Below, one piece after another: positions 38,785 through 46,351 of a stretch of DNA of 64,000 nt. Within the stretch, counting starts at the first letter, position 1. Each line of letters opens with the position of its first letter. The notes beneath the pieces were generated by a model that saw nothing but the letters and a program-made list of their open reading frames with translations, was not told where the DNA came from and ran no database searches. Origin of the DNA: Ideonella sp. (GTDB taxonomy: Bacteria; Pseudomonadota; Gammaproteobacteria; Burkholderiales; Burkholderiaceae_C). Both the position numbers and the translations under genes were made by a program. Location: NCBI GenBank assembly GCA_015075545.1, contig JABTUC010000001.1, forward strand, positions 1,116,001 to 1,180,000. Reading direction: 5' to 3'.

Positions 38785-39744
38785 ATGTCGAAAGCCCTCG
38801 CCTTTGTCGCCGCGCTGCTGAGCAGCCTGCTGTTCAGCCTCGGCGCCAGCGCCCAGAACCTCTCGATCGCCACCGGCGGCACCGGTGGCGTGTACTACCC
38901 GATGGGCGGCGGCATCGCCGCGGCGCTGTCGAAGTACGTGCCCGGCATGGAGGCCACCGCCGAAGTCACCGGCGGCTCGGTCGACAACCTCAAGCTGATC
39001 GGCAGCGGCAAGCCCTACATCGGGCTATCGATGGCCGACGCCGCGCAGGACGCGCTGCGTGGCGAGAACAAGTTCAAGGACCACAAGATCGCGGTGCGCA
39101 CGCTGATGGTGCTGTACCCCAACCGCATGCACGTGGTCACCGTCGAGGGCCGGGGCATCGCCAAGATGCGCGACCTCAAGGGCAAGCGCGTGTCCACCGG
39201 GTCGCCGGGCAGTGCCACCGAGGTGATGGCGTTTCGCATCATCGAGGCCGAGGGCCTCGACAAGGACAAGGACATGACGCGCGAGCGCCTCGGGGTGGCC
39301 GAGTCGGTCAACGCGATGAAGGACGGCAAGATCGACGCCTTCTTCTGGGTCGGCGGCCTGCCCACCGCGGCGGTGACCGACCTCGCCAACACGCCGGGCA
39401 CCAAGATCAAGCTGATCGACCATGCCGACATCGTGCCCAAGATGAACCAGAAGTACGGCAACCTGTACGTCGAGGACGTGATCCCGAAGGCCACCTACAA
39501 GGGCATGGACGCCGACAACCACCAGGCCACGGTGATGAACATCCTGGTGGCCAACGCGAGCATGGACGACAAGACGGCCTACAACATCGTCAAGACCATC
39601 TTCGACAAGCGCGACGACCTGATCGCCGTGCACAAGGAAGCCGCGAACTTCAAACTCGAGAACCAGAAGGCGAGCGCGTCGCCGTTGCCGTACCACCCCG
39701 GCGCGGCCAAGTACTTCGCCGAGAAGGGCGTCAAGGTCAACTGA
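38785..39744 (+). CDS. TAXI-family TRAP transporter solute-binding protein
   Basis: 319 residues. Signal peptide MSKALAFVAALLSSLLFSLGASAQ, then TAXI landmarks: LSIATGGTGGVYYPMGGGIAAALSKYVPG, TGGSVDNLKLIGSGKPYIGLSMADAAQDAL, LKGKRVSTGSPGSATEVMAFRIIEAEGL and KIDAFFWVGGLPTAAVTDLA. It binds a carboxylate-type solute in the periplasm for the fused permease next door. Family solutes include glutamate-like and other organic acids; this one is unknown. The ATG at 38785 has AAGGAGA at 38776-38782. First gene of the plus-strand cassette that runs to the lipoate-ligase-like gene. Confidence 0.94.
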   Translation: MSKALAFVAALLSSLLFSLGASAQNLSIATGGTGGVYYPMGGGIAAALSKYVPGMEATAEVTGGSVDNLKLIGSGKPYIGLSMADAAQDALRGENKFKDHKIAVRTLMVLYPNRMHVVTVEGRGIAKMRDLKGKRVSTGSPGSATEVMAFRIIEAEGLDKDKDMTRERLGVAESVNAMKDGKIDAFFWVGGLPTAAVTDLANTPGTKIKLIDHADIVPKMNQKYGNLYVEDVIPKATYKGMDADNHQATVMNILVANASMDDKTAYNIVKTIFDKRDDLIAVHKEAANFKLENQKASASPLPYHPGAAKYFAEKGVKVN

Positions 39745-39751
39745 AATGAAT

Positions 39752-39835
39752 CCCCCCGCAGCGCCTTCGGCGCCTCCCCCCAGGGGGCGCCGCCAGCGGC
39801 CCGGCAGAGCCGGTTCCGCGGCGGCCGCTTGGTGG
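39752..39835. repeat. GC-rich multi-hairpin element between binding protein and permease genes
   Basis: The gap holds consecutive hairpins: GCGCC-TTC-GGCGC at 39761-39773, then a C5/G5 stem flanked by GGCGCC and GGCGCC arms up to ~39792. More dyads follow (GAGCCGG and similar). It resembles GC-rich palindromic intergenic units I recall from Burkholderiales genomes. A role in lowering permease expression or protecting the upstream message is plausible. No U-run, so not an ordinary terminator. Confidence 0.45.
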
Positions 39836-39885
39836 CGTCGGATTCATGCGTCGAGGGTGCCGCTTCGGCGCCATGGAAAACTGAG

Positions 39886-41940
39886 TTGAGCGGCGCGCCG
39901 CAAGGTGGGCCCGCCGGCGCGCCGCCGGCGGCCGTGCCTGCGGGTGCAGTCAGCGACGAGGCGCTCCACAAGGCCGAGGAGTTCGTCGAGGCCGAGGAAG
40001 GCGCGGCCAACAAGCTGAAGGGCTGGCTCGGCGTCTTCGTCGCCGTGGTGGCGTTCGTGATGTCGGCGTTCCACCTGTACGCCGCCTACGAGATCGTGCC
40101 CACGCAGACCCTGCGGCCGGTGCACGTGGCGTTCGTGCTGTTCCTGTGCTTCCTGCTGTTTCCGGTGGCGGGACGCTTCCGCCACCGCGTGATGTGGTGG
40201 GACTGGATCGCCGCCGCGCTGTCGATCGCCATCGTCGTCTACCTGATCCAAGGCGGCGACGACTTCACCGACCGCAACACCTCGCCACTGCCGTGGGACA
40301 TCGCCTTCGGCCTAGCGCTGATCGTGCTGGTGCTCGAGGCGATGCGACGCACCAACGGCTGGATCATGCCGGTGATCACGCTGGCGTTCATCGCCTACGC
40401 GCTGGGGGGCCCCTACCTGCCGGCGCCGTGGACGCACAAGGGCTACGACCTCGCCCGCCTGGTGGGCGTGATGTACATGACGCTCGAGGGCATCTACGGC
40501 GTCGCGGTCGACGTGTCGTCGTCGCTGATCATCCTGTTCACGATCTTCGGTGCCTTCCTGCAGTACACCGGCGCGGGCAAGTTCTTCATCGACTTCTCGT
40601 TCTCGGCGATGGGCGGCAAACCCACCGGCGCCGGCCGCACCGTGGTGCTGGCGTCTTTCCTGCTGGGCGGCCCTTCGGGCTCGGGCGTGGCCACCACGGT
40701 GACGCTGGGCGCGGTCGCGTACCCGATGCTGGCCAAGGTCGGCTACGGCAAGAACGCCGCCGGCGGGTTGCTCGCCGCCGGCGGCCTGGGCGCGATCATC
40801 TCGCCGCCGGTGCTCGGCGCGGCCGCGTTCCTGATCGCCGAGTTCCTGAAGATCTCGTACCTCGACGTGCTGCTGATGGCGGTGGTGCCGACGGTGCTGT
40901 ACTACCTGGCGCTGTTCCTGATGGTCGAGCTCGACGCGCGCAAGCTCGGCATGCGCGAGGTCGACTTCGGCAAGCTCGAATCGGTGTGGGCACTGTCGCG
41001 GCGCTACTGGTTCCACTTCCTGTCGCTGGTGTCGATCGTCGTCTTCATGCTGCTGGGCTACTCGCCGGTGCTCAGCGTGTTCTGGGCCACCGCGGTGTCG
41101 TTCGTCACCAGCTTCCTGCGCCGCGACACCGCGATGTTCTCGTACGACCTGTTCCGCGGCCGCGGGTCGTGGGTCGATCACGTCTTCGACTCGCCGTTTG
41201 TGCAGGCGATGCGCGCCGGCTCGACCGGCGTGCTCAGCGTCGCGGCCACCTGCGCCGGCGCCGGCATCATCGTCGGCGTGGTCACGCTCACCGGCCTCGG
41301 GCTGAAGTTCAGCTCGATCGTGATCGACTACGCCGGCGGCTCGCTGCTGCTGACCGCGATCTTCACGTCGCTGGTGGTGTGGATCGTCGGCCTGGCGGTG
41401 CCGGTGACCGCGAGCTACATCATCTGCGCGGTGATCGCCGCGCCGGCGCTGATCAAGCTCGGCGTGCCCGACTTCGCGGCGCACATGTTCATCTTCTACT
41501 ACGCGGTGCTGTCGGAGGTGTCGCCGCCGACCGCGCTGTCGCCGTTCGCCGCCGCCGCGATCACCGGCGGCGACCCGTACAAGACCACGCTGCAGTGCTG
41601 GAAGTACACGGTGCCGGCGTTCCTCGTGCCGTTCATGTTCGTGCTCGATCCGAGCGGTCAGGGCCTGCTGCTGATGGGCTCGACCAAGGCGCTGGCCAGG
41701 GCCGACTGGTGGTCGATCGCCGAGGTCGCGCTCACCGCCGCGGTGGGCATCGCGGCGCTGGCCGCCGGCTTCCAGGGTTGGGCGTTGCGCAAGACGACGC
41801 TGATCGAGCGCTGGATGCTGCTGATCGCCGGCGTGGCACTGGTCTATCCGGGATGGCGAGCCGATATGGTGGGCTTCGGGTTGGTCGCGCTGGCGCTGGC
41901 GATGCAGGCGCTGCGCAGAGTGCCGGCCCCCGCCAATTGA
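39886..41940 (+). CDS. TAXI-type TRAP transporter fused permease (DctQ-DctM)
   Basis: 684 residues from a TTG at 39886 (LSGAPQGGPAGAPP), with GGAA eight bases ahead; longer starts add only non-family sequence. A ~45-residue polar tail is followed by the small four-helix part (~45-130, FVAVVAFVMSAFHLYAAYEIVPTQTLRPVHVAFVLFLCF). The large DctM-like part follows: VSSSLIILFTIFGAFLQYTGAGKFFIDFSFSAMGGKPTGAGR, GGPSGSGVATTVTLGAVAYPMLAKVGY, GGLGAIISPPVLGAAAFLIAEFL and YYAVLSEVSPPTALSPFAAAAITGG. It is a sodium- or proton-driven secondary importer working with the TAXI protein. The start is uncertain. Confidence 0.9.
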   Translation: MSGAPQGGPAGAPPAAVPAGAVSDEALHKAEEFVEAEEGAANKLKGWLGVFVAVVAFVMSAFHLYAAYEIVPTQTLRPVHVAFVLFLCFLLFPVAGRFRHRVMWWDWIAAALSIAIVVYLIQGGDDFTDRNTSPLPWDIAFGLALIVLVLEAMRRTNGWIMPVITLAFIAYALGGPYLPAPWTHKGYDLARLVGVMYMTLEGIYGVAVDVSSSLIILFTIFGAFLQYTGAGKFFIDFSFSAMGGKPTGAGRTVVLASFLLGGPSGSGVATTVTLGAVAYPMLAKVGYGKNAAGGLLAAGGLGAIISPPVLGAAAFLIAEFLKISYLDVLLMAVVPTVLYYLALFLMVELDARKLGMREVDFGKLESVWALSRRYWFHFLSLVSIVVFMLLGYSPVLSVFWATAVSFVTSFLRRDTAMFSYDLFRGRGSWVDHVFDSPFVQAMRAGSTGVLSVAATCAGAGIIVGVVTLTGLGLKFSSIVIDYAGGSLLLTAIFTSLVVWIVGLAVPVTASYIICAVIAAPALIKLGVPDFAAHMFIFYYAVLSEVSPPTALSPFAAAAITGGDPYKTTLQCWKYTVPAFLVPFMFVLDPSGQGLLLMGSTKALARADWWSIAEVALTAAVGIAALAAGFQGWALRKTTLIERWMLLIAGVALVYPGWRADMVGFGLVALALAMQALRRVPAPAN

Positions 41941-42022
41941 CGCGTCAACCGCGCTGGCATAGCATTTTTATCAGTGGGCACTGGCCGCAAAGGCGGCCGC
42001 TCGGGGGAATTGGAGGAGGCCC

Positions 42023-43081
42023 ATGAGACCTTGGCTGGTCGCGTGCCGCCGGACACGATTGCTGCGAGTGCTCGCGCTCGCGACCGCAGCGGCGCTGCTG
42101 GCAGCGGGTTGCGCCACCGCACCAGCCGGTGGCAGCACCAGCGTGGTGACCGAGACGTTCATGATCCCGGCAGCCGACCCTGGCATCGCGCTGCACCTGC
42201 GCAACAAGCGGCCGGCCGGCGTCGACAGATTCGGACCCGAGCGCATCGTGCTGTTCGTGCACGGCGCCACCTACCCGTCGGAGACCGGCTTCGACATCGC
42301 GCTGCCCGGCGGGTCGTGGCTCGAGCACGCGGCCAGCCGTGGCTTCGACGCCTATCTGGTCGACGTGCGCGGCTATGGCCGCTCGACGCGGCCTGCAGCG
42401 ATGAGCGCGCCGCCCAACGCCAACCCGCCGTTCGCCGACACCGCCGACGCGGTGAAGGACGTGGGTGCTGCGGTCGAGTTCATCCTCAAGCGGCGCGGCG
42501 CGGCCAAGCTCAACCTGGTCGGCTGGTCGTGGGGAACGGCGATCATGGGCACCTACACCGCGAACCACAACGCCAAGGTGCAGCGCCTGGTGCTTTACGC
42601 GCCGCTCTATGCGATGCGCGAGGCGCCGCCGATCTCGGGCGTCGGCGCCTACCGCGCGGTGACTCGCGAGCCGGCGCGCCAGCGCGGCGTGCGCGGCATC
42701 CCGGCCGATCGCGTCGAAGAGATCAGCCCGCGCGCGTGGTTCGACCAGTGGTTCGACGCCAACCTCGCCACCGATCCGACCGGCGCCGCTCAGAACCCGC
42801 CGGTGGTGCGCGCGCCCAACGGCGTGATCAAGGACATCGGCGACATCTGGTCCAAGGGCCGCTCGCCGTACGACCCGGCCGCCATCCGCGTGCCGACGCT
42901 GCTGATCATCGCCGAGTGGGACCAGGACACGCCGCTGTACATGGCGCAGGATGTGTTCGCCAAGATGACTCACTCGCCCGACAAGCGCTTCATCATCCTC
43001 GGCGAGGGTACGCATGCGATCGCGCTGGAGAAGAACCGCATGAAGCTGATCCGCGAGGTGCAGCAGTTCCTCGAAGAGTAG
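42023..43081 (+). CDS. Lipoprotein alpha/beta hydrolase
   Basis: 352 residues. The N-terminus contains a basic region, a hydrophobic helix and the lipobox LAAGC with Cys30, so the protein should be exported and lipidated. The hydrolase fold shows oxyanion loop VLFVHGATYPSETGF, VDVRGYGRSTRP, nucleophile LVGWSWGTAIMG, acid region LLIIAEWDQDTPLYMAQ and catalytic His in ILGEGTHAIALEKNR. The ATG at 42023 has a strong GAGGAGG. It lies 82 bases after the TAXI permease. A periplasmic esterase or hydrolase that prepares or acts on the solute is a reasonable guess. A large GC hairpin separates it from the E1-alpha gene. Confidence 0.9.
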   Translation: MRPWLVACRRTRLLRVLALATAAALLAAGCATAPAGGSTSVVTETFMIPAADPGIALHLRNKRPAGVDRFGPERIVLFVHGATYPSETGFDIALPGGSWLEHAASRGFDAYLVDVRGYGRSTRPAAMSAPPNANPPFADTADAVKDVGAAVEFILKRRGAAKLNLVGWSWGTAIMGTYTANHNAKVQRLVLYAPLYAMREAPPISGVGAYRAVTREPARQRGVRGIPADRVEEISPRAWFDQWFDANLATDPTGAAQNPPVVRAPNGVIKDIGDIWSKGRSPYDPAAIRVPTLLIIAEWDQDTPLYMAQDVFAKMTHSPDKRFIILGEGTHAIALEKNRMKLIREVQQFLEE

Positions 43082-43145
43082 CCGACCAGCGCGACCGGCC
43101 ATCCGCCCCGGACGCCACCGCGCTCCGGTTGGCGACGCGGCAGCC

Positions 43146-43172
43146 CGGTGCCGCGGCCGCGCCGCGGCACCG
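43146..43172. terminator. Perfect 12-base-arm GC hairpin after the lipoprotein hydrolase gene
   Basis: CGGTGCCGCGGC (43146-43157), loop CGC, GCCGCGGCACCG (43161-43172). The stem is perfect and all strong pairs except two, but no T-run follows. It may end or pause transcription of the transporter/hydrolase genes, or it may be a protein-binding dyad ahead of the E1-alpha gene. Confidence 0.5.
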
Positions 43173-43227
43173 CTGGCCCGGACACGACCGCCGCAGGTGA
43201 TCCGGCTCAATCGAGCTGCGCTTGTGC

Positions 43228-43243
43228 TGGCACGCCGCACGCC
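43228..43243 (+). promoter_or_regulatory. Possible sigma-54-type promoter ahead of the E1-alpha gene
   Basis: TGGCACGCCGCACGCC has a perfect -24 element (TGGCACG) and GC exactly ten bases after GG, but the -12 half (ACGCC) lacks the usual TT. It lies 85 bases before the E1-alpha ATG. Acetoin dehydrogenase operons of related bacteria are sigma-54 dependent, which makes it worth noting. The match may be chance. Confidence 0.3.
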
Positions 43244-43327
43244 GGAGGTCTATCGTTGCAGCCCCCAATGCCCCCGATGCGCGGAGCCACAAGGGGTGTC
43301 ACGGTCCGATGGCTTAAGGAGACGTTC

Positions 43328-44341
43328 ATGCAAGCCAGCAAGGAACAGCTGTTGTGGATGTTCGAGACGATGGTGGCGATCCGCCACTACGAGGAGACGA
43401 TGGTCAACGTCTACCTCGAAGGCAAACTGCCGCCGCAGATCCAGAAAGGCCTGGCCTTCGACATCGGATCGGGCCCGGTGCCCGGCGAGATGCACCTTGC
43501 CGCGGGGCAGGAGCCGGTGGCTGTCGGCGTGTGTGCCCACCTGAAGAAGGAGGACACCGTCGTCGGCACCCACCGGCCGCACCACTTCGCGATCGCCAAG
43601 GGCGTGCCACTCGACAAGATGACGGCCGAGATCTTCGGCAAGGCCACCGGCCTGGGCAAGGGCAAGGGCGGCCACATGCACCTGTTCGACGCCGAGCACC
43701 GCTTCAGCTGCAGCGGCATCATCGGCGCCAGCCTGCCGCCGGCCTGCGGCGCCGCGCTGGCGGCCAAGAAGCTCGGCAAGGACTGGGTCGCGGTGGCCTT
43801 CTTCGGCGAGGGCGCGGCCAACCAGGGCTCTTTCCACGAATCGCTCAACCTCGCCGCGCTGTGGAAGCTGCCGGTGATCTTCGTCTGCGAGGACAACCGG
43901 TGGGCGATCTCGGTGCCCAAGACGGCGGCGACGTCGGTCGACCGGGTGGCCGACCGCGCGTCGTCGTACGGCATGCCCGGCATCCACGTCGAGAACAACG
44001 ACGCGGTCGACGTGTTCGAGGCGGCCGGCCCGGCCATCGCGCGCGCGCGCCGCGGCGAGGGCCCGAGCCTGATCGAGGTGAAGACCGACCGCTACCTCGG
44101 CCACTTCCAGGGCGACCCCGAGGTCTATCGGCCGAAGGACGAAGTGGCGACGCTGCGCAAGAGCGATCCGATCCCCAAGCTCGCGAGCCTGCTCAAGCGC
44201 CAGGGCCTGCTCAACGACGTCGAGGAGGCCAACATCGTCGCGCGCGCCAAGCAGCGCGTCGCCGACGCCTACGACTATGCGCGCAAGAGCCCTTACCCGG
44301 CCGCGCAGGACGCGCTGACCGACGTGTTCGTCACCGCCTGA
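43328..44341 (+). CDS. Thiamine-diphosphate-dependent dehydrogenase E1 alpha subunit (AcoA/PdhA-like)
   Basis: 337 residues. It forms the E1 heterotetramer with the next gene, decarboxylating a 2-oxoacid or cleaving acetoin and passing the acyl unit to a lipoyl domain. Seen: MHLAAGQEPVAVGVCAHL, THRPHHFAIAKGV, GKGKGGHMHLFD, and the thiamine-diphosphate motif at 160-193 (FFGEGAANQGSFHESLNLAALWKLPVIFVCEDNRWAIS). The usual GDG is GEG here and the ENNxY end is EDNRW, so two cofactor/Mg positions are conservatively changed. ATG at 43328 with TTAAGGAGA ahead. It is 17 bases before E1-beta. Confidence 0.93.
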   Translation: MQASKEQLLWMFETMVAIRHYEETMVNVYLEGKLPPQIQKGLAFDIGSGPVPGEMHLAAGQEPVAVGVCAHLKKEDTVVGTHRPHHFAIAKGVPLDKMTAEIFGKATGLGKGKGGHMHLFDAEHRFSCSGIIGASLPPACGAALAAKKLGKDWVAVAFFGEGAANQGSFHESLNLAALWKLPVIFVCEDNRWAISVPKTAATSVDRVADRASSYGMPGIHVENNDAVDVFEAAGPAIARARRGEGPSLIEVKTDRYLGHFQGDPEVYRPKDEVATLRKSDPIPKLASLLKRQGLLNDVEEANIVARAKQRVADAYDYARKSPYPAAQDALTDVFVTA

Positions 44342-44358
44342 GACCGCAGGAGGACACC

Positions 44359-45399
44359 ATGAGCAAGACCCGCACACTCACGATGGCGCAGGCGATCGCC
44401 GAGGCCATCGGTCAGGAAATGACGCGCGACCCGAATGTCTTCGTGATGGGCGAAGACATCGGCGCCTACGGCGGCATCTTCGGTGCCACCGGCGGCCTGC
44501 TGGAGAAGTTCGGCAAGGACCGCATCATGGACACGCCGATCTCCGAGACCGCGTTCATCGGCGCGGCCACCGGCGCCGCGGCTAGCGGCATGCGGCCGAT
44601 CGTCGAGTTGATGTTCGTCGACTTCTTCGGCGTCTGCATGGACCAGATCTACAACCACCTGGCCAAGAACACCTACATGGCCGGCGGCAACATCAAGCTG
44701 CCGGTGGTGCTGACCACCGCGATTGGCGGCGGCTACAACGACGCCGCGCAGCACTCGCAGTGCCTGTACGCGACGTTCGCGCACGTGCCTGGGCTGAAGG
44801 TGGTGGTGCCGTCCAACGCCTACGACGCCAAGGGCCTGATGACTCAAGCGATCCGCGACGACAACCCGGTGATGTTCATGTACCACAAGGGCATCATGGG
44901 GCTACCGTGGATGGCCTACTTCGAAGGCAGCAGCACCGACGTGCCTGAAGCGCCGTACACGCTGCCGTTCGGCCAGGCCAGGGTCGCGCGCGAGGGCAAG
45001 GACCTGACCATCGTCACCATCAGCCAGATGGTGCACAAGGCGCTGCTCGCCGCCGACGAACTGGCCAAGGCCGGAGTCAGCGCCGAGGTGGTCGACCTGC
45101 GCACGCTGGTGCCGCTGGATCGCAACGCCGTGCTGAAGTCGGTGGGCAAGACCGGGCGCCTGATCGTCGCCGACGAGGACTACCTCGGCTTCGGCCTGAC
45201 CGGCGAGATCTCGGCGATCGTGGCGGAGAACCTCGACACGCTGAAGCTCAAGGCACCGGTCAAGCGCCTCGCGGTGCCGAACGTGCCGATTCCGTACAGC
45301 CGGCCGCTCGAGCAGTTCGTGATCCCGCAGGTCGCAGGCATCGTCGAGGCGGCGAAGTCGCTGATGAGCGCGCGCACGGCCGCGGCGGCAACCGCATGA
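44359..45399 (+). CDS. Thiamine-diphosphate-dependent dehydrogenase E1 beta subunit (AcoB/PdhB-like)
   Basis: 346 residues. Transketolase-like pyrimidine-binding domain: TMAQAIAEAIGQEMTRDPNVFVMGEDIGAYGGIFGATGGLLEKFG (catalytic Glu in GEDIG), DTPISETAFIGAATGAAASGMRPIVELMFVDFFGVCMDQIYNHLAK, and GGGYNDAAQHSQCLYATFAHVPGLKVVVPSNAYDAKGL. The C-terminal transketolase domain follows (LTIVTISQMVHKALLAADEL, AEVVDLRTLVPLDRNAVLKSV). ATG at 44359, with AGGAGG ahead. Its TGA overlaps the ATG of the lipoyl-domain gene (ATGA), so the two are translationally coupled. Confidence 0.94.
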   Translation: MSKTRTLTMAQAIAEAIGQEMTRDPNVFVMGEDIGAYGGIFGATGGLLEKFGKDRIMDTPISETAFIGAATGAAASGMRPIVELMFVDFFGVCMDQIYNHLAKNTYMAGGNIKLPVVLTTAIGGGYNDAAQHSQCLYATFAHVPGLKVVVPSNAYDAKGLMTQAIRDDNPVMFMYHKGIMGLPWMAYFEGSSTDVPEAPYTLPFGQARVAREGKDLTIVTISQMVHKALLAADELAKAGVSAEVVDLRTLVPLDRNAVLKSVGKTGRLIVADEDYLGFGLTGEISAIVAENLDTLKLKAPVKRLAVPNVPIPYSRPLEQFVIPQVAGIVEAAKSLMSARTAAAATA

Positions 45400-45650
45400 G
45401 CGTAGCGGTCACGCTGCCCGACAGTGCCTGGGAGGGGGTGGAGGCCGGCGTCGAGGCGCTGCTCGACCAATGGCTGGTGGCCGCCGGCGATGCCGTACTG
45501 GCCGGCCAGCCCTTGGCCAAGGTGGTACTGGTGAAGGCCAACCTCGACGTGACGGCGCCCGCCAACGGCCGCGTGGAAACCATCCGCGTCGCCGCCGGCG
45601 CGACCTTCGCGCGCGGCCAGGCCATCGCCATCCTGAAGGAGGCCCCGTAG
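45396..45650 (+). CDS. Stand-alone lipoyl-domain carrier protein, 84 residues
   Basis: The whole protein is one biotinyl/lipoyl domain: VTLPDSAWEGVEAGVEALLDQWLVAAGDAVLAGQPLAKVVLVKANLDVTAPANGRVETIRVAAGATFARGQAIAIL is the span, with the modified lysine at 47. Strand pattern and the following ANLDVTAPANG match E2 lipoyl domains. The usual acidic residue just before the lysine (ETDKA) is a valine here (VLVKA). There is no peripheral-subunit-binding or acyltransferase domain, so it is a carrier only. The ATG overlaps the E1-beta stop and the lipoate-ligase-like gene follows after 29 bases. It is probably the acyl acceptor of this E1. Confidence 0.88.
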   Translation: MSVAVTLPDSAWEGVEAGVEALLDQWLVAAGDAVLAGQPLAKVVLVKANLDVTAPANGRVETIRVAAGATFARGQAIAILKEAP

Positions 45651-45679
45651 ACAAGGCAGCCGACGAACAGGACTGGAAC

Positions 45680-46351
45680 ATGCGCGCGCTCGACGAATCG
45701 GCGCGCGCGGCGCGCTTCCGCGTCTGGACCTACTGCGCGAGCGCGGTGGTGCTCGGCTGCTCGCAGCGCGCTTGGCATGCCGACGTGCAGCAGCGGCTCG
45801 GCGCGCGCGCCGACGTGCTGCTGCGTGAATCGGGCGGCGGCGCAGTGCTCGTGGGCCCGTGGCTGGTCAGCGCATCGGTGGTGGTGCCGCACGACCACCC
45901 GTGGGTGCGCGGCGGCGTCGTGCCGAGCTACCGCCGCATCGCCGAGTTGCACGTCGACGCGCTGGCCGAGCTCGGCATTGCGAGCCAGCCACTGCGGCCG
46001 GGCGACGTCACCGCCGCCAACGATGCGGAACCTGTCGTGCGCTGGGCCTGCTTCGGCAGCCTGTCGCCGTGGGAGGTCGTCGACGGCCGAGGCCGCAAAC
46101 TGGTGGGGCTGGCACAGCGGCGGCGGCGCGAGTCGGTGCTGCTGGTGGCCGGCACGCTGGTCAGCGTGCCAGACTGGACGCTCCTCTGCGACACGCTCGA
46201 CCATCCGCAGGACGAGGCCGCGCTGCGCGCGCGCACCGTGTCGTGCGAACAGATCGCCGGGCGGCCGGTCCCAGCGGCAGAGTTCGCAGCGGTGCTCGCG
46301 CGGCAACTTGACGACGCCCTGCTACCGCATGCCGCCGCCCCGCGACAGTGA
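45680..46351 (+). CDS. Lipoate-protein ligase A-like protein
   Basis: 223 residues of the BPL/LplA/LipB fold. The lipoate-binding loop RESGGGAVLVGPWLVSASVVVP is at 49-70, and GRKLVGLAQRRRRESVLLVAGTLV at 137-160 supplies the invariant lysine (Lys140). It would attach lipoate or transfer an octanoyl/lipoyl group to the adjacent stand-alone lipoyl protein. It is shorter than E. coli LplA (337) because the C-terminal accessory domain is absent, as in LplA-like transferases. ATG at 45680 with AGGA eight bases ahead; last gene of the cassette. A terminator-like hairpin lies downstream. Confidence 0.85.
   Translation: MRALDESARAARFRVWTYCASAVVLGCSQRAWHADVQQRLGARADVLLRESGGGAVLVGPWLVSASVVVPHDHPWVRGGVVPSYRRIAELHVDALAELGIASQPLRPGDVTAANDAEPVVRWACFGSLSPWEVVDGRGRKLVGLAQRRRRESVLLVAGTLVSVPDWTLLCDTLDHPQDEAALRARTVSCEQIAGRPVPAAEFAAVLARQLDDALLPHAAAPRQ

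Follow-up and report, generated by a model that had tools for sequence, protein, structure and literature searches.

Gene organization of the locus

A 64,000-nucleotide stretch of DNA from Ideonella sp. (contig JABTUC010000001.1, positions 1,116,001 to 1,180,000; hereafter the window) contains a tight run of four genes, at 43328-46351 on the forward strand, for a putative acyl-transferring enzyme system with a free-standing lipoyl carrier. The first two genes encode the subunits of an E1 enzyme: E1-alpha (43328-44341; PF00676, 264 bits), the thiamine diphosphate (ThDP)-binding subunit with the motif GEGAANQG...EDN and a loop GHFQGDPEVYR, and E1-beta (44359-45399; PF02779 and PF02780; NF006667, 346 bits with a cut-off of 321). 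The E1-beta gene shares an ATGA overlap with the gene of the lipoyl carrier (45396-45650; PF00364, 46 bits), which is followed by the gene of a single-domain lipoate ligase/octanoyltransferase-like protein (45647-46351, start codon unsettled; PF21948, 68 bits with a cut-off of 27). The original prediction for this locus, made from the sequence alone, had described these genes, including the overlap, as part of a seven-gene cassette without an E2 acyltransferase core or an E3. All seven genes are present on the same strand, with matches in Pfam or NCBIfam, and a tblastn search of the whole window with a stand-alone E2 core and the genome's own SucB and Lpd as queries gives no match, in agreement with the claimed absence of both components.

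The carrier has the predicted length of 84 residues and is a lipoyl domain alone, with no core or E1/E3-binding domain in the chain. Its model (predicted local distance difference test score, pLDDT, 90.8) matches the folds of E2 lipoyl domains and biotin carriers, and Lys47, named in the original prediction as the lipoylation site, is invariant in all 42 aligned members. The protein reaches only 30 bits with the AcoC-type E2 family NF011457 (cut-off 307), and Pfam assigns it to PF00364 instead of the GcvH family. The genome of the window (3.69 Mb in 13 contigs, 85% complete) contains LipB-LipA; its sole 2-oxoacid_dh core, at this completeness, is SucB, and one strong lipoamide dehydrogenase (Lpd) scores above cut-off, with its gene adjoining sucB.

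Conservation of the unit

Counts of named loci refer to the window and the best 80 of 507 E1-beta matches, obtained from a scan with one genome per species; in these 80 relatives E1-beta is 77-91% identical. The gene-cluster counts are lower bounds, and the heuristic caller, which uses codon-position GC, takes shadow open reading frames (ORFs) in places. The free lipoyl gene adjoins E1-beta in 80 of the 81 loci, the exception being L170, the sequence of which ends 6 bp past E1-beta, and a ligase gene is found near E1-beta in 55. The window's family was covered by 299 genomes, the window's among them; 30 have the ligase, 21 the free lipoyl protein (E 1e-13 or better), and 17 both. Of the 21 genomes with the lipoyl protein, 18 have the E1-beta gene next to it; in G101, G114 and G290 E1-beta was not found within the stretch fetched. 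At phylum level (398 genomes), E1-beta (E 1e-100 or better) occurs in six, i.e., the window's genome and five others with 61-67% identity. A linked E3 is rare: an Lpd match is found in only one of 111 loci (L191), in none of 11 further loci, and not in the window. Judged by these comparisons, the conserved unit is E1-alpha, E1-beta, the free lipoyl carrier and the ligase-like protein, with the transporter and hydrolase genes of the window outside it, and the triplet of E1-beta, free lipoyl protein and ligase extends well beyond this strain, contrary to one of the refutations named in the original prediction.

In some loci without a ligase other genes follow the lipoyl gene. Locus L118 (9325-10257, circular genome CP070653) has a gene for a radical S-adenosylmethionine protein (PF04055) at this place, and a ligase-less sub-branch (L152, L160, L162, L164, L166, L168 and L178) has genes recognised by eye as encoding an HlyD-like protein, an ATP-binding cassette (ABC) permease and an ATPase.

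The three upstream genes of the window encode a TAXI solute-binding protein of the tripartite ATP-independent periplasmic (TRAP) transporter type (38785-39744; TIGR02122, 286 bits), a fused TRAP permease (39829-41940; TIGR02123, 548 bits) and an exported alpha/beta-hydrolase lipoprotein (42023-43081; PF12146/PF00561, with a lipobox-like LAAGC by eye), all on the forward strand. The original prediction joined them with the E1 genes into one pathway for an imported acid. The common strand and close spacing would fit such a pathway, as would a TAXI gene and a fused permease gene lying 2-6 kb upstream of a core-bearing unit (see below) in Natrialba magadii, and genes of TRAP-like appearance, judged by eye, that adjoin a second E1 unit with a free lipoyl carrier in the window's own genome. 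However, none of the three proteins has a tblastn match (E 1e-3) beside the unit in the 80 relatives, 54 of which have at least 4 kb of upstream and at least 3 kb of downstream sequence. A gap of 246 bp separates the hydrolase gene from that of E1-alpha, the upstream genes vary between genomes in the near relatives inspected, and two TAXI proteins studied in the literature are reported to be tied to glutamate. A single pathway is quite improbable on this balance, and the transporter and the hydrolase are better left out of the cassette.

The second unit of this genome (L078; C12, ~66966-69198) comprises a free lipoyl protein of 80 residues followed by E1-alpha and E1-beta, with no E2 core, and lies downstream of the genes that resemble a TRAP transporter. 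In G098, a relative, a core is encoded just upstream of a lipoyl gene of the L078 type.

A stand-alone E2 core in related loci

Twelve of the 81 loci contain a stand-alone 2-oxoacid_dh catalytic domain, i.e., an E2 core of ~210-240 residues encoded separately between the lipoyl and ligase genes. The carriers of this core include Hydrogenophaga, Limnohabitans, Massilia, Burkholderia guangdongensis and Denitromonas. In L179 the core is split into two pieces, and the only core scanned, that of L135, matches PF00198 and nothing else. The listed stand-alone cores contain the sequence DHRAxDG, which we take to be the E2 active-site motif. Core-bearing loci also differ in their downstream genes, as a GMC (glucose-methanol-choline) oxidoreductase gene with a small protein gene beside it occurs in 11 of the 81 loci; the small protein, presumably gluconate-2-dehydrogenase subunit 3, has no Pfam match. 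When the 68 loci with at least 2.5 kb of downstream sequence are compared, 38 are coreless with a ligase, 18 have neither, 11 have core, ligase and GMC, and one has core and ligase without GMC, so that GMC accompanies 11 of 12 core loci and none of the 56 coreless loci. An alpha/beta-hydrolase gene follows the GMC gene in the core-bearing loci L131, L135, L139 and L154; the best NCBIfam match of this hydrolase is the esterase PRK10673, with 169 bits, below the cut-off of 399.

The separate core is also found in distant relatives. Six plasmid relatives were fetched out of 20 found (Aminobacter, Halobaculum, Phaeobacter, Rhodococcus, Natrialba and Sphingomonas), representing the three deep groups of alphaproteobacteria, Rhodococcus and haloarchaea, and all six encode E1-beta, a lipoyl protein and an annotated separate E2. 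The Phaeobacter locus additionally contains a ligase and GMC, while in Rhodococcus lipA stands where the ligase would stand. Among the five phylum-wide relatives, two (L268 and L269) have core and GMC, and three (L265-L267) have a ligase-like ORF directly after the lipoyl gene and are hence coreless. The presence of a stand-alone core beside the lipoyl gene in relatives indicates that the complex is a split E2, and that the unit of the window is its coreless form, the core having been lost in some lineages. The claimed absence of an E2 core thus holds for the branch of the window, in which no linked E3 is seen either, but a system that works without an E2 core is not supported for the family as a whole. 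In the open-licence literature on free lipoyl proteins, split E2, acetoin operons and haloarchaeal complexes, no description was found of an E1 system whose carrier is free and whose core stands alone; an earlier notice of the haloarchaeal form is possible.

In a midpoint-rooted tree of 99 E1-beta rows, with thin outgroup sampling and some long branches, the window falls in a branch of 47 rows (support 99/95) in which no core is seen; 35 of these rows are scored as coreless and 12 have too little downstream sequence. The core-bearing haloarchaeal, Rhodococcus and alphaproteobacterial rows are at the base of the family. In a second tree, of 73 rows, the presence of the core requires five changes.

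A coreless unit might be a decaying remnant, and the stepwise loss seen across the tree, of the core, then of the canonical ligase start, and then of the ligase, is in line with this, as is the raised ratio of nonsynonymous to synonymous substitution (dN/dS) of the ligase (~0.44 for the window and L114; 0.29 for L126 and L125). However, for the window and L114 the ratios are ~0.14 for E1-alpha, ~0.18 for E1-beta and ~0.24 for the lipoyl protein, which indicates that these three genes are under clear purifying selection and the ligase less so. With Lys47 invariant and the unit kept in many genera, decay appears very improbable.

E2 cores elsewhere in coreless genomes

PF00198 was searched in genomes under 24 handles, two of which (G125 and G304) yield identical places. 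Curvibacter delicatus (100% complete), Curvibacter PAE-UM and Tepidiphilus olei have a coreless locus and only SucB-like and AceF-like E2 cores; G308 and G309 have two E2 cores each, by count only, and G098, from the window's genus, has five, inspected in part. A dedicated full-length E2 encoded elsewhere was considered and rejected: the third cores in six coreless genomes (G125, G303, G002, G310, G017 and G299) each stand beside E1-alpha and E1-beta genes of their own, the products of which are 36-42% identical to the window's E1. No E2 core that clearly belongs to the E1 of the window, which would have refuted the original prediction, was found elsewhere in these genomes.

The ligase-like protein and its start codon

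The model of the ligase-like protein, calculated from position 45680 on (pLDDT 94.4), has 2p0l, 2art and 2p5i as its best PDB folds (Foldseek 1.4e-11 for 2p0l and 2.6e-11 for 2art) and shows an LplA/LipM/LipB catalytic fold from which the accessory domain is absent. All 32 sequences compared share Arg49, Gly52-54, Cys124 and Lys140 (Cys124 and Lys140 numbered from 45680). A 2014 survey gives RRxTGGG..HD and G(R/K)K..GxAQ as the LplA motifs (PMC3904984). The second is complete in the window's protein (GRKLVGLAQ) and the first is present in part (RESGGGAVLVGPW), with HD lacking; the sequence does not separate a ligase from an octanoyltransferase. The original prediction saw this protein as a ligase dedicated to the carrier. 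Although it is conserved with E1 and carrier, in 13 of the 30 ligase-bearing family genomes no carrier is found at E 1e-13, so that the ligase family has other clients too and is not strictly dedicated. Ligase-only loci (L044, L045, L046, L058 and others) encode homologues that are 51-58% identical over most of the protein and have no E1 or lipoyl genes; a gene beside several of them is presumably hemB.

The ligase gene is present and ends at 46351, but at its junction with the lipoyl gene GTA (45647) stands in place of a canonical start. Of the nearest in-frame ATG codons, either of which may be the start, the downstream one (45680) lies behind residues that are conserved in relatives, and the upstream one (45470) lies within the lipoyl gene. 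This arrangement is common among the 43 coreless loci with a ligase. In 22 of them the lipoyl gene ends with TGA, and 12 of these have an overlapping NTG codon, whereas 21 end with TAA or TAG, and in all 21 the overlapping codon in the ligase frame is GTA (15 loci) or ATA (six loci), together RTA. Eighteen of the 21 were examined closely, namely the window (45640-45680), L113-L117, L119-L124, L128, L129, L132, L134, L141 and L155; L125, L127 and L145 were omitted, having no C before the codon, which in L125 and L145 is closely followed by a GTG. Throughout the 18 loci the conserved N-terminus of the ligase starts at the RTA codon, an AAGGAG-like stretch lies ~5 bases upstream of it, and the first ATG, GTG or TTG follows only 11-34 codons on. 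Ten have no ATG, GTG or TTG between the preceding in-frame stop and RTA; in the other eight, including the window, such a codon lies within the lipoyl gene, ~178 or 220 bases before RTA. The simplest reading of this pattern is that ligase translation would be initiated at GTA or ATA. A single TGA-to-TAA change would convert GTGA to GTAA and alter stop and start together. A -1 frameshift, by which lipoyl and ligase proteins may be fused, was dropped as the less likely reading, as the last codons before the stop share no slippery run and the ligase frame of L124 is already closed 13 bases before this point.

Proposed substrate and mechanism

Several features of relatives connect the unit with acetoin dehydrogenase. 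In a midpoint-rooted tree with few outgroups and long branches, AcoB copies form the outgroup closest to the E1-beta family, and the E1-alpha loop of the window is shared with the AcoA loop in L143 (GHFEGDAQTYR). A sigma-54 activator is encoded in all 12 core loci and in 11 coreless loci, and a gene for a NAD-kinase/diacylglycerol kinase (DAGK)-like protein stands beside some members; these are presumably AcoR and AcoX, although their families show just a sigma-54 activator and a NAD-kinase/DAGK-like protein. In L140 and L143 a classical AcoC-bearing cluster adjoins the unit, and AcoC of L143 (NF011457, 469 bits, cut-off 307) combines a lipoyl domain with an alpha/beta-hydrolase and has no PF00198. 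Because of the AcoB outgroup, the AcoA-like loop, the sigma-54 activator and the adjoining AcoC clusters, acetoin or a related ketol is favoured as the candidate substrate, with a 2-oxo acid as the alternative.

Sequence composition and conservation show a heterodimeric ThDP-dependent E1, a free one-domain carrier and a ligase-like protein, joined in relatives by a separate core encoded in the same operon. In the mechanism that we propose, the ligase-like protein would load Lys47 of the carrier, and E1 would cleave acetoin or a related ketol, or decarboxylate a 2-oxo acid, and reductively acylate the carrier, which would act as a diffusing substrate and not as a tethered arm. The stand-alone core of core-bearing relatives would then transfer the acyl group to coenzyme A (CoA). 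In the window's branch this step may fall to a housekeeping E2 core, by exclusion of a dedicated one in the coreless genomes inspected; if the acyl group is acetyl, AceF would be the most likely candidate. The shared E3 (Lpd, with its gene next to sucB) would reoxidise the carrier. We give an even chance to this scheme, in which a coreless split-E2 system of the acetoin or 2-oxoacid type has its cycle completed by housekeeping E2 and E3.

A number of observations weigh against it. The role of AceF follows by exclusion only, and the window's own genome, at 85% completeness, shows SucB and no AceF. No clue to the substrate lies around the window itself, all support for acetoin coming from relatives, and in the window's branch of 47 rows no clustered sigma-54 activator gene is found. 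The window's E1-alpha scores under the cut-offs of the NCBIfam E1-alpha equivalogs. TRAP transporters as a rule carry acids, which would favour a 2-oxo acid, yet the transporter is not conserved here. An independent-pairs test of core against GMC finds two independent changes on supported branches, a number with which significance is impossible, and the 99-row tree has thin outgroups, long branches and a midpoint root.

An enzyme with a different fold might instead hydrolyse the acyl-carrier or pass its acyl group to some other acceptor, with no CoA-transferring E2 core involved. AcoC, found beside the unit in L143, provides a precedent, with an alpha/beta-hydrolase domain in place of the 2-oxoacid_dh core, and human ABHD11 is reported as a thioesterase of glutaryl-lipoyl (PMC12643935). 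The hydrolase after the GMC gene in four of the 12 core loci looks cytosolic, and an annotated alpha/beta-hydrolase follows the core in Sphingomonas L235. However, the former goes with the presence of the core and not with its absence, the coreless branch has no conserved hydrolase, and the hydrolase of the window carries an export signal and is unmatched in the 80 relatives, which makes this route unlikely. It is also rather unlikely that, in the window's branch, free acyl-lipoyl serves as a diffusible acyl and electron carrier with an acceptor other than any E2 CoA site, in an E1 pathway without E2 in which the ligase is made from a GTA/ATA start overlapping the carrier's stop.

Comparison with known systems

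Like the unit, acetoin dehydrogenase (AcoA-AcoB-AcoC-AcoL) has a heteromeric ThDP-dependent E1, apparently of the nearest outgroup branch and with the AcoA loop, and a lipoyl carrier whose chain contains no 2-oxoacid_dh domain; near some members there are genes for a sigma-54 activator and a presumed AcoX-like protein. Unlike AcoC, which fuses lipoyl domain and alpha/beta-hydrolase, the carrier described here is a protein of its own, any core is likewise a 2-oxoacid_dh domain encoded apart, and the system has its own ligase. The pyruvate and 2-oxoacid dehydrogenase complexes with E1-alpha2-beta2 share the E1 fold families and the lipoyl domain with the unit, and also the PF00198 core where relatives have one. 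They differ in that here the E2 is split, without an E1/E3-binding domain, with no core in the window and no linked E3. In textbook complexes of this type the lipoyl arm is tethered to the E2 core.

Lipoyl groups acting in trans have a parallel in actinobacterial OdhA with AceF, where the E1/E2 active site is reported to be served by a lipoyl domain of another polypeptide (PMC10415282); in that hybrid AceF contributes the lipoyl domain and E1 is fused to E2, whereas here the carrier is free and E1 alone. LbpA of sulfur oxidisers is reported to consist of a single free lipoyl domain, to have an sLpl(AB) ligase gene of its own nearby and not to be served by the general lipoylation enzymes (PMC6067878, PMC10332631). 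Unlike the cysteine-free carrier of the window, with its neighbouring E1 genes, LbpA is described there as GcvH-like, with two conserved cysteines and Hdr-like genes. Of the three archaeal classes in the 2014 survey, one consists of lipoyl-only proteins; the available text of the survey describes no operon that combines E1 with a split E2 and its separate core (PMC3904984).

Implications

In the window's branch, which lacks a core, the acyl group would go to an enzyme encoded elsewhere or be released by a new route. A widespread relative of the 2-oxoacid dehydrogenases with split carrier and core, together with a coreless branch, would show that tethering is dispensable, and the coreless branch would make it possible to test directly if the core of another complex can be served by a free lipoyl carrier. 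Free lipoyl carriers with their own ligases, hitherto shown for sulfur oxidisers, are now linked to E1 enzymes. The conserved GTA/ATA codon of the ligase, if used, would provide natural examples of very unusual translation starts.

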